Source of the DNA: Candidatus Omnitrophota bacterium
Lineage (GTDB): Bacteria > Omnitrophota > Gorgyraeia > Zapsychrales > Fredricksoniimonadaceae
DNA length: 39,806 nt
NCBI GenBank assembly: GCA_028870995.1
Contig: JAGWOI010000005.1
Span: 1 to 39,806 of the forward strand
Direction: 5' to 3'
Shown here: piece by piece, positions 1 through 12,630 of the stretch
Layout: each line of letters starts with the position of its first letter
How positions within the stretch are numbered: position 1 is the stretch's first letter
Notes under the pieces: generated by a model
Told to the model about the DNA's origin: nothing
The model's database searches: none
Seen by the model: only the letters and a program-made list of their open reading frames with translations
Position numbers and translations under genes: made by a program

Positions 1-3000
1 GCATCAACTGGTATGACCTAAATGTCTTGAGCCGCAACGGCATCAACTGGAATGATATTAACACGTTGAGCCGCAACGGCGTCAACTGGTATGACCTAAA
101 CGTTTTGAGCCGCAACGGCATCAACTGGAATGATATCAACAGATTGAGCCGTACCGGCATCAACTGGTATGACCTAAACGTTTTAACCCGTACCGGCATT
201 AACTGGAATGACTTGAGTGTCTTGGCCGGCACCGGCATCAATTGGAGTGACATCAATGCCTTAAGCCGTACCGGCATCAACTGGAATGACTTCGGGGTGT
301 TGAGCAAGAACGGCATTAATTGGTATGATTTGAATGTTTTAAGTAGGACCGGCATAAACTGGAACGATTTGGGCGTCATGGGCAAGACCGGTGTGAATTG
401 GCAGGATCTGACCGTCATGTCTACAGCGGCCACCAATTGGTCGGCCATCGCCTATTTGAGTCAGTCAGGCGTCAACTGGGGTGATTTCGCCTCCATTACC
501 CATGCCGGCATCAACTGGTTTGACTTAAGCCAGCTGACAGGCACCGGCATCGGCGGCAACATCAACTGGCAGGACTTCACGGTCCTGTCACAGGCCGGCG
601 TTAACTGGGATGATATCGCCGTCATGAGCGGCACCGGCGTCAACTGGAATAATTTCGGGGTGTTGAGCAAGGCCGGCATTAACTGGAATGATTTCGGAGT
701 CTTGAGCAAAACCGGGCTTAATTGGAGTGATATCAACGTGCTCAGCCGTACAGGCATCAATTGGAACAGCTTTGGCTTGATGAGCAATGTGGGGATCAAC
801 TGGAATGATATCAACGTGCTAAGCCGTACCGGCGTCAACTGGAATGACCTCGATATATTGACCACCACAGGCATCAACTGGAGCGACATCGGCAGCTTCT
901 TTAACACACTGTCCGAATCCGGCATTAACTGGAGTGACCTGGCGGTGATGACCAAGATAGGGATGAACTGGTCCGATTTGGCCGTGTTGACCAAGACCGG
1001 CGTCAATTGGGGTGACATGGGAGCTTTAAGCAGGACCGGTATTAATTGGAATGACTTTGACGTTCTAAGCAGGACCGGCATTAATTGGGGCGATATTGAT
1101 GTGATCAGCCGTACAGGGATCAACTGGAACGATTTCGGCGTGTTGAGCAAGACAGGTATCAATTGGAATGACTTCGGGGTGTTGAGCAGGACCGGCATTA
1201 ATTGGGGTGATATTGATGTTATCAGCCGTACCGGCATCAACTGGAATAATTTCGGCCTCATGAGCAATGTGGGGGTCAACTGGAACGACATCGGCGCCTG
1301 GAGCAAGGCCGGGATCAACTGGAACGATTTCCAGATGCTCTCCACTACTGGCATCAACTGGATGGATTTGGGTAGCTATATCAACACCTTATCTGAAGCG
1401 GGTATCAACTGGAGTGATTTCGCGGTCATGACCCGGACAGGCATCAATTGGAGCGACATGGCGGTCTTGACCAAGACAGGCCTCAATTGGAGCGACATCA
1501 ACACCATCAGCCGCACGGGCATCAACTGGAATGACTTCGGTGTGTTGAGCAAGACCGGTATTAATTGGAGCGACATCAACACCATCAGCCGCACGGGCAT
1601 CAATTGGAATGATTTCGGGCTCTTGAGCAAGACCGGCATCAATTGGAACGATTTTGGGGTCTTGAGTAATACCGGCATTAACTGGAGTGATATCAACACC
1701 ATCAGCCGCACGGGCATCAACTGGAATGACTTCCAGGTCCTCTCCAGGGAAGGCATCAACTGGGATGATCTCAACGCGTTAAGTCGTAATGGGATCAACT
1801 GGAATGACTTGAATGTACTGACCCGCAACGGCATCAACTGGAATGACTTGAACGTACTGACCCGCAACGGCATCAACTGGAATGACTTGAACGTGCTGAC
1901 CCGCAACGGCATCAACTGGTACGATTTGAACGTGCTGACCCGCAACGGCATCAACTGGTACGACATTTATACCTTAAGCCATACGGGTATCAATTGGAAT
2001 GATTTTGGTCTCTTGAGCAAAACCGGGATCAATTGGTACGATCTAAGCGTGCTGGGCAGCACCGGCATCAACTGGGGCGACATTGACCGTATCAGCCGCA
2101 CGGGTATTAATTGGGATGACTTCGGGGTCTTGGGCAAGACCGGTGTCAATTGGTCTGATATCAATGTTCTCAGCCGCACAGGCGTCAACTGGAATGACAT
2201 CAATACCTTAAGCCGCATCGGCGTTAATTGGAGCAACTTCAGTCTGATGAGCAATGTGGGCATCAATTGGAATGATGTTAAGACATGGAGCACGACCGGC
2301 ATCAATTGGAGCGATTTACAGATCCTGACTGCAGCCGGCATCAATTGGTCAGACTTGGGAAGCTACATCAATACCTTGTCGGAAGCGGGGATCAACTGGA
2401 GCGATCTGGCGGTCATGACCAAGGTGGGCATGAATTGGAGCGATCTGTCGGCTTTAAGCAAGACCGGTATCAATTGGAATAATTTCGGATTATTGAGCAA
2501 TACCGGTATCAACTGGAATGACTTTGGGGTTTTAAGCAAGACCGGCGTCAATTGGGGCGACATCGATGTGATCAGCCGCACAAACATCAACTGGAACAAC
2601 TTCAGCCTCATGAGTAATGTGGGCGTCAACTGGAACGACATCGCTGCCTGGAGCAAGGCCGGTATTAACTGGAACGACTTCCAGCTCCTGTCCACCACTG
2701 GCATCAACTGGATGGATTTGGGCAGCTATATCAATACCCTGTCCGAATCAGGCATCAACTGGAGCGATTTTGCGATGATGACCAGGACCGGCGTCAATTG
2801 GGAAGACCTCTCCGTCCTGTCCAAGACCGGGCTTAATTGGAATGACTTCCAGGTCCTGAGCAAGACCGGCATCAACTGGAATGATTTCGGGGTCTTGAGC
2901 AAGACGGGCGTTAACTGGAGCGACATCAACGCGATCAGCCGCACAGGCATCAACTGGAGCGATTTCGGGGCCTTAAGCCGCACGGGCATCAACTGGAATG

Positions 3001-11190: not shown

Positions 11191-12630
11191 ATGGACAAAC
11201 CGAATAATCCGGTCGCTCAAGAAGATTACCCAGCGGGCGTCGTACCCAACACAGGCCGTATCGCCGCTGTCCAGGGCCCTGTGGTGGACGTGCGTTTCCC
11301 CGAGGACGAGGAAGCGCCGGCGGTCTTTGACTGCATTATCACCTACACTTTTGACGGCCGCAAGGTCACTCTCCAGACCGCGGAGCATTTGGGGCCCGGC
11401 CTGGTGCGCTGCATTTCCTTTAATGAAACCCTCAACCTGCAATTAGGCGCGCCGTGCACCAACACCAGGCGCCCCAATGCCATCCCCATGGGCGACGGGT
11501 GTTTCGCGCGGGTCATGGATGCCGCCGGACGTCCTTTGGATGAGGGCGGTCCTTACCAGTGCCCGGAAAAAGTCCCCATCCGTAAGCCTGTTCAGCAGCT
11601 TAGCTTTGACCTTAAGAAAAAAGGCCGGGAAGTGCCCGAGCTTTTGGAAACAGGCATCAAGTATATCGACTTGCTTTATCCGATGATCAAGGGAAGCAAG
11701 ACAGGGGTCCTGGGCGGTGCCGGCTGCGGCAAGACCGTCGTCATTTTGGAACTCATCAATAATATCGTCAAGGCCCACGGCGGCGCCTGTGTGTTTACCG
11801 GCATCGGCGAGCGCATCCGCGAAGGCAACGAGCTTTATTATGAACTTGAAGAGAACCATCTGTTGTCCAAGGTCATGCTGGCCTTCGGGCAGATGGACCA
11901 GCCGCCGGGCGCCCGGGCGGAAGTCGTTAATGCGGGCCTGACCATGGCGGAATATCTGCTGGCCAAGAACAAGGACGTGCTGTTGTTCATGGACAACCTG
12001 TACCGGTTCATCCAGGCCGGCCAGGAGGTCTCCACACTGCTGGGCCGTGTCCCGGCGGAAACCGGCTATCAGCCGACCCTGGCCTCGGAGGTCAACACCG
12101 TCCAGGAACGCATCCGCTCCGTTGAGGGCGGCGGTTCCATCACCGCCATGCAGGCGGTGTACGTGCCGGCGGATGACATGACGGACCCCGCGGTCGTCTC
12201 CATTTTCGCCACGCTCGACGGTGTTATCGTGCTTTCGCGTGACCTGGTCCAGCGCGGTATGTATCCGGCGATCGACCCTTTGCAAAGCTCGTGCACCAAC
12301 CTCGATACCAACGTGGTGGGCCGCCGCCACTATGAGGTTTCCCAGCAGGTCATCCAGCATTTCAACAAGCACAATTCCCTGAAACGTATCGTGGCGGTCA
12401 TCGGCCTGGAAGAGTTGAACAAGGAAGACCAGAAGACGTATAAGCGGGCCGAGAAACTCTATAATTTCATGACCCAGCCTTTCACGGTTTCAGAGGTTTT
12501 CACGGGTAAAAAGGGCGAGTACGTGCCCTTGGAAGAAAACATCATCGGTTGTGAAAGGATCCTGCGAGGGGACTATGACCATATCGAAGCGCAGGATTTT
12601 TACATGATCGGCAAGGCCCCGAGGATCTAA
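11191..12630 (+). CDS. atpD: F-type ATPase beta subunit
   Basis: 479 aa. Catalytic subunit. P-loop GGAGCGKT (Lys181), the catalytic-Glu segment [25 protein letters not shown], the Walker B region [33 protein letters not shown], and the DELSEED loop as ELNKEDQ. The C-terminal [19 protein letters not shown] is canonical. All catalytic positions that I can check are kept, so it should be active. About 20 extra N-terminal residues precede the beta-barrel. AGGAG lies about 8 nt before the ATG. It is the last ATPase gene, only 16 nt before gspE, with no terminator between. Confidence 0.95.

Follow-up and report, generated by a model that had tools for sequence, protein, structure and literature searches.

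A giant repeat protein, a membrane anchor and an F-type ATPase without a recognisable a-subunit in a conserved gene row of Omnitrophota

Described systems and the locus in the window

Seymour et al. 2023 describe a non-respiratory F-type ATPase beside type IV pilus genes in Omnitrophota and report giant open reading frames (ORFs) as a separate trait (PMC10066038); horizontal transfer of the ATPase within the phylum is published in the same account. We analysed a stretch of 39,806 nucleotides (nt) from a Candidatus Omnitrophota bacterium, called the window below (bases 1-39806 of contig C19 in a genome of 2.34 Mb), in which the end of a giant repeat gene, a gene for a membrane anchor, the genes of a divergent F-type ATPase and a series of secretion/pilus genes follow one another. 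The published ATPase is similar in its phylum, its non-respiratory F type and its pilus-type neighbours (the two are likened by gene neighbourhood). The portion of that account considered here makes no mention of an anchor, a fusion, a missing a-subunit or paired c subunits (PMC10066038), and while it speaks of a “type IV pilus”, the neighbours in the window include pseudopilins of the type II secretion type. In the open-licence literature, preprints and supplements aside, we found neither a link of such an ATPase to the giants or the anchor nor a missing a-subunit. The neighbourhood of the ATPase and pilus genes is already known; its tie to the giants and the anchor and the loss of the a-subunit appear to be new within the literature searched.

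Comparable systems are described in Mycoplasma, namely the Type 2 G1-ATPase of gliding (PMC11864180) and the Type 3 F1-like X0 ATPase with MIB-MIP (PMC12994834; Beven 2012, PMC3369863). As far as the cited accounts present them, they also have F1-type heads engaged in mechanical or surface work and genetic linkage to surface proteins; however, Fo is replaced there by three proteins unrelated to it, including two membrane proteins (X0), whereas the window cluster retains the c-ring and a b/delta protein and has lost the a-subunit, in a cell that has a secretin. The original prediction for this DNA referred to Mycoplasma as a precedent. This stands as an analogy but goes no further: alpha and beta score well under the cut-offs of the gliding models MMOB1660 (390 of 600) and MMOB1670 (421 of 850).

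The row is contiguous on the plus strand, from the giant repeat gene through the anchor and the ATPase genes to the secretion/pilus genes, and extends to approximately position 20932. The giant gene overlaps the gene for the anchor of 434 amino acids (aa) by 14 nt, the anchor gene overlaps alpha by 4 nt, and c2 overlaps b/delta by 4 nt; the other gaps between the ATPase genes are 6-12 nt. The coordinates, overlaps and gaps proposed originally proved exact on recheck; the overlap of c2 with b/delta, the lack of an a-subunit, the continuation into secretion/pilus genes and the earlier publication of such a neighbourhood were not part of the original prediction. The first part of the row, in positions of the window, is as follows.

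3-5933, plus strand: giant INW-repeat protein, 3' part of 1,976 aa, cut off by the contig start, with 13-aa repeats followed by a C-terminus free of them
5901-5930, plus strand: VVVKSYYESE, the conserved tail at the C-terminus of the giant and its proposed anchor-docking strand (motif in giants and at fusion junctions)
5920-7224, plus strand: anchor, 434 aa, with a signal peptide, two units of beta-sandwich plus helix, a C-terminal transmembrane helix and a short tail
7081-7176, plus strand: C-terminal transmembrane helix of the anchor, residues 388-419 (by hydropathy; helix 389-420 in the structure model)
7221-8753, plus strand: alpha of the F-type ATPase without an a-subunit, lacking the canonical N-terminal helix (Pfam, alignment, NCBIfam)
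8760-9059, plus strand: epsilon, N-terminal beta-sandwich only (Pfam, at cut-off)
9072-9302, plus strand: c1, carboxylate in the second transmembrane helix (Pfam)
9314-9556, plus strand: c2, second c-like subunit, carboxylate present (alignment with c1)
9553-10317, plus strand: b/delta, the b stalk fused to a C-terminal portion of delta (Pfam, delta profile)
10324-11178, plus strand: gamma (Pfam)
11191-12630, plus strand: beta, catalytic residues intact (Pfam, NCBIfam)

We propose that the products of this row form one envelope-spanning machine, in which the ATPase, having no a-subunit, would act mechanically on a tethered giant fibre and would not make ATP; the chances of this reading seem to us about even.

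Co-occurrence of the giant, the anchor and the ATPase

With the first 138 alpha residues, aligned, as the query, 74 loci were obtained, 41 of which (L111-L151) constitute the clade considered here. Their labels are Omnitrophota/Omnitrophica, or Aceula and Zapsychrus (which were taken as Omnitrophota), except for one Elusimicrobia (L117), a locus missed by the gene caller and checked separately. The anchor directly precedes alpha in 39 of the 41 loci, and the contigs of the other two have just 74 and 1 nt ahead of alpha. Among the 40 loci in which alpha was called, 34 extend 1,500 nt or further upstream; all 34 contain the anchor and, before it, a large ORF (399-2,887 aa in the stretch covered), which is NW-rich in 33 of them, L148 being the exception. 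Absence of the anchor and repeat genes beside the ATPase of close relatives, which was to count against the original prediction, was thus not observed. Over these 34 loci the spacing ranges from -19 to 102 nt between the giant and the anchor and from -4 to 169 nt between the anchor and alpha. None of the 22 canonical alpha loci from the same search (L163-L184) has the anchor. The cluster of L117 is of the Omnitrophota type, with the anchor and the giant tail, and its label may be wrong.

Many contigs of the clade loci recur in the set of related genomes that was inspected first, and these two sets are not independent. We also compared 285 genomes of the phylum. The anchor profile matches 120 of these genomes; the clade alpha profile (E < 1e-200, weaker matches being taken as canonical or partial) matches 127, with 144 loci. 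Both are present in 115 genomes, the anchor only in 5, the ATPase only in 12, and neither in 153; in G155, one of the five with the anchor only, the anchor is accompanied by a partial alpha that scores under the threshold. In the order to which the window belongs, the ATPase is found in all 25 genomes with the anchor and is missing from 10 of the 11 others, five families having both states; in the exception (G252, the ATPase without the anchor), alpha lies at contig base 75. Among the anchor places listed (some second matches per genome are left out), at least 117 of the 144 ATPase loci have an anchor on the same strand no more than 4.7 kb upstream, 3 have it elsewhere on the contig, and 24 have none on the contig, at least 14 of the latter lying within 1.7 kb of a contig edge. 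A second ATPase cluster in genome G185 lacks the anchor within 13 kb upstream of alpha.

Since horizontal transfer of the Omnitrophota ATPase is published (PMC10066038, as far as that account is considered here) and the cluster is patchy across the phylum, one can ask whether the genes are adjacent merely through shared transfer or a chromosomal habit, with no common function. We consider this very improbable in view of the tight gaps over 34 loci and the concordant presence or absence in five families of the order. Moreover, the rearranged genome G127 retains all of them on one stretch, with a giant of 4,548 aa and, about 36 kb from alpha, the anchor on the downstream side; and the anchor can be fused to the giant. 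The fusion is seen in other lineages, where a giant ORF of 12,858 aa (G144) and one of at least 9,738 aa (G181) end in one anchor unit and the membrane helix; the ATPase and secretion genes come next in both.

At the C-terminus of the unfused giants there is a conserved tail, of which VVKTWFESEE is the typical form. The motif [KEQ][TSAG][WY]xE, defined after the C-termini had been inspected, is present in the last 16 residues of 36 of the 37 unfused giants (34 from the clade and 3 from distant clusters), the only one without it being that of L148; as a control, 1 of the 364 other ORFs longer than 200 aa in the same loci has it. A similar motif immediately precedes the first strand of the anchor in the fused giants (KTWLEPG in G144, KSWLEPG in G181). 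Since the same motif marks the ends of the unfused giants and the fusion junction, the simplest reading is that the tail of the giant docks to the anchor. Taken together, the conserved order, the co-occurrence, the anchor-giant fusion in other genomes and the common C-terminal motif strongly support the original proposal of one machine, and the gene products may well operate as a unit.

The predicted structure of the anchor has a mean predicted local confidence (pLDDT) of 83.4 and a predicted template-modelling score (pTM) of 0.50, hence the placement of its domains is uncertain. The anchor matches no Pfam family above the cut-off and no NCBIfam model, has no Foldseek match at E up to 0.001 and no sequence relative in PDB, and gave no match in plasmids and no relative in viral contigs. 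The VIA-align rows for it, mostly 3-helix bundles with the best Z of 10.1, were rejected as lying inside the stated range for helical models.

The part of the giant in the window contains 131 NW motifs, with 122 spacings of exactly 13 aa. The gene is truncated by the contig start, the window beginning at base 1 of C19. Another contig of the same genome, C17, ends in a 4,019-aa ORF with a signal peptide, a non-repeat region and 279 motifs, which is open at the contig end. A search of the genome with the N-terminal 506 residues of the part in the window gave 38 matches, all at the start of C19 or the end of C17. The relative G016 has a single unbroken giant gene (10,962 aa, 796 repeat motifs), followed by the anchor and the ATPase and preceded by genes similar in size to those on C17. 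Since the repeat matches only at these two ends and the gene is unbroken in G016, the end of C17 and the start of C19 very likely belong to one giant gene, together at least 5,995 aa.

Upstream of the giant, C17 encodes a T2SSC-like protein (below cut-off), a secretin, a tetratricopeptide repeat (TPR) protein and two related proteins. The latter, each of approximately 540 aa, stand directly before the giant (L110:4065-7293), and the one that was scanned matches FGE-sulfatase; a pair of comparably sized ORFs occupies this position in G016. The assembly of G020 has a break inside the giant (C41, L120:3-4341), the NW repeats being divided between two ORFs (217 and 1,224 aa in the stretch covered). 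The Pfam families Ntox33, DUF7476 and Pox_A31 were rejected for the repeats: the whole-protein cut-offs were passed with no single stretch passing, which points to repeated composition.

ATPase subunits and the missing a-subunit

Pfam identifies alpha, beta, gamma, c1 and the N-domain of epsilon (at cut-off). In b/delta it recognises the delta end, the b part scoring below the cut-off (24.1 of 28), and c2 has neither a Pfam nor an NCBIfam match, yet can be aligned with c1. As in canonical F1Fo ATP synthases, alpha passes TIGR00962 (510 of 484) and beta passes TIGR01039 (532 of 463), while a second alpha model, NF009884, is narrowly missed (523 of 554). The beta GER motif and P-loop lysine are retained in 45 of 45 cases and the alpha arginine finger in 50 of 50. 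Judged by these equivalog scores and catalytic residues, the head belongs to the F-type F1. Gamma, epsilon and c1 are under the F1Fo equivalog cut-offs (76 of 194, 31 of 67 and 20 of 44, respectively). In a concatenated alpha-beta tree of 33 chosen taxa (midpoint root, L125 excluded for its incomplete beta), the divergent ATPases form a monophyletic group (support 100) separate from 11 canonical ATPases and 2 N-ATPases.

Unlike canonical F1Fo enzymes, the window ATPase has no a-subunit and no N-terminal alpha helix, its delta is reduced and fused to b, it has two types of c, and its gene order is different. Alignment of the alpha N-terminus (28 of the 48 listed alphas) demonstrates that 24 of the 28 start after the helix; in the remaining 4, the extra residues of the called starts are unlike the helix by eye. 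Of 9 b/delta proteins, 8 match the delta profile no earlier than position 32-104, compared to position 2 in canonical delta, and the ninth does not match it, so the N-domain of delta appears to be lost in part or wholly.

In the N-ATPase reference L213, too, the b position is taken by a gene of approximately 250 aa and delta has no gene of its own, so this arrangement is not unique to the divergent ATPase. The N-ATPase model of b spans the b and delta parts of the window protein, under the cut-off (59 of 225), and N-ATPases have the order c-b-alpha-gamma in common with the distant clusters. Unlike the window, L213 has an a-subunit and AtpI/AtpZ genes, and the window alpha and beta do not reach the alt_F1F0 cut-offs (482 of 750.5 and 448 of 752), in agreement with the separate clade in the tree.

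A few observations on the neighbouring ATPase genes can be added. PF00006 reveals three alpha/beta-type pairs in the genome of the window: a canonical F-type with an a-subunit on C2, a pair on C3 taken for V/A-type, and the present cluster on C19. The distant cluster L104 (G013:C14) has two alpha-like genes in tandem. In L106 (G004:C17, reverse complement 4984-8433), a 1,149-aa ORF lies between beta and PilB; none as large was seen there in the other loci inspected alongside.

No a-subunit (PF00119) was matched in any divergent ATPase cluster, and the only one in the genome of the window accompanies the canonical F-type on C2. The search covered 32 genomes; G004, G005 and G031, which have only pieces of the cluster, were excluded. 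An a-subunit was found in 23 of them, every match above the cut-off being on a contig other than that of the divergent cluster, and 9 genomes have none, of which 6 are at least 90% complete. The same search is positive in 9 of 14 controls. A protein of approximately 300 aa from the distant clusters was considered as an a-subunit and rejected: it has no membrane helix and by eye consists of a response regulator and GGDEF.

Two or more c genes are present in 37 of 39 loci; three consecutive c-like genes, one without the carboxylate, occur in L129:4496-5190. The ion-binding carboxylate is retained by one or more c subunits in all 39 loci; of the 37 loci with several c genes, 28 have it in every c subunit, and both carboxylates are kept in all 7 loci matched to genomes without an a-subunit (L127, L131, L132, L133, L135, L136 and L138). 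No other observation speaks as strongly against a purely mechanical motor, because such retention is unexpected if ions play no part. Together with the retained c-ring and b stalk, it makes one ask whether the ATPase still translocates ions and serves the secretion machine, with a diverged a-like stator or another membrane protein of the cluster completing the channel. We find this rather unlikely. The a-subunit search recovers the subunit in most genomes and controls but never on the divergent contig; in the main clade no further membrane gene is seen between the giant and GspE; and the N-terminal helix of alpha and part or all of the N-domain of delta, which join the head and the stator, are lost.

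Secretion genes and the proposed tether

The row continues with the following genes.

12647-14407, plus strand: GspE/PilB ATPase with an MshEN domain (Pfam/NCBIfam)
14412-15620, plus strand: GspF/PilC platform protein
15620-16459, plus strand: Peptidase_MA_2 protein with a HEITH motif, which may release or process the giant
16389-16865, plus strand: GspG-type pseudopilin, start codon uncertain (T2SSG 108.5 bits, cut-off 21)
16636-17244, plus strand: pseudopilin (N_methyl), start uncertain
17187-17840, plus strand: pseudopilin (N_methyl)
17636-18835, plus strand: GspK-type pseudopilin, start uncertain (T2SSK_1st 45.2 bits, cut-off 26.2; NCBIfam GspK 79 of 130)
18903-20324, plus strand: PilM-PilN-like protein
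20321-20932, plus strand: PilO-like protein

A PilB-like gene is present in 36 of the 41 clade loci, and the other five are contigs of 4.3-8.4 kb. The GspG and GspK pseudopilins exceed the Pfam cut-offs, and the secretin, T2SSE and T2SSF families, which are common to type II secretion and type IV pili, match as well. The gene upstream of the giant is GspC-like (T2SSC 26.0 of 27), and T2SSJ scores 20.3 of 28 in L087. Matches above the cut-off are also obtained for PilM, PilN and PilO, domains that take their names from type IV pili, and the window GspE/PilB scores nearly equally with the NCBIfam models of GspE (569 of 630) and PilB (571 of 676), in both cases under the cut-off. Since GspG, GspK, the secretin and the GspC-like protein thus stand against PilM, PilN, PilO and the near-equal scores, the predicted system is a mix of type II secretion and type IV pilus features. 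The Peptidase_MA_2 protein might release or trim the giant.

Two side observations concern possible control by cyclic di-GMP (c-di-GMP), as a GGDEF-like protein is encoded in the distant clusters and the window GspE/PilB has an MshEN domain; in L199 and L200 (G181 and G144), the former, of approximately 300 aa with a response regulator and GGDEF by eye, lies between the peptidase and ATPase genes. At 22290-24509, soon after the secretion genes, the window encodes a NorB-like nitric oxide reductase (cytochrome c-like and COX1 domains).

With GspE/PilB close after beta, and the platform protein, the pseudopilins and an upstream secretin in the same row, it is tempting to regard the F-type ATPase as an export or assembly motor that energises the export of the giant, like the related FliI/SctN in type III export, and has no later role. 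We consider this unlikely: GspE already has that role, and the genome contains further ATPases of the T2SSE family (19 matches, 16 above the cut-off). In addition, a c-ring is present here, whereas FliI-type export ATPases are not known to have one.

Our preferred reading remains a tethered fibre worked by the ATPase. The giant secreted repeat protein would be exported, most likely with the help of the neighbouring secretion/pilus apparatus, and would then remain held at its C-terminal end by the anchor, a protein that spans the inner membrane. The dedicated F1 head on the c-ring, having no a-subunit, would hydrolyse ATP and work the tether mechanically by rotation, pulling or conformational work, force presumably passing to the anchor; the fibre could be used for contact with, or movement on, other cells. 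As far as the gene content suggests, the rotary ATPase may then drive a huge surface fibre, as proposed originally. A more specific version, in which the F1/c-ring motor turns or pulls the inner-membrane root of a fibre of several thousand residues passing through the secretin and so provides ATP-powered contact with prey or host, or motility, is offered tentatively and seems to us possible but doubtful.

Several points besides the retained carboxylates weigh against the tether. It presupposes a contact between the anchor and the c-ring. The association between the anchor and the ATPase (Fisher p 2e-58) is overstated, since the genomes are related, and the ATPase was found without a detected anchor in 12 genomes; one of these, G125, is a one-contig genome, in which a large ORF stands divergent to the ATPase. 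In the distant cluster L100, the 3.7 kb preceding the anchor-like genes contain no giant ORF. Separate transcripts are conceivable: on both strands of 5500-15700 there are 13 promoter-like sites compared to 5.8 in shuffles, while terminator-like sites in the same scan are no more frequent than in shuffles (14 compared to 11.2). For the 13-aa repeat we claim no fold, as AlphaFold2 on 14 repeats gave a pLDDT of 42.9 (input of 142 of the 154 collected segments, MAFFT gapped rows, 208 columns for 182 residues).

We believe that the observation is of interest for the biology of the phylum. The giant ORFs are one of the most puzzling features of Omnitrophota, and gene order, co-occurrence and fusion now tie them to the “symbiotic” ATPase, with the membrane anchor identified as the candidate link between the two. 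The role of the giants and the use of the extra ATPase thereby become a single testable question, and the cluster may join Mycoplasma as a second example of rotary ATPases that serve a purpose other than ATP or ion gradients.

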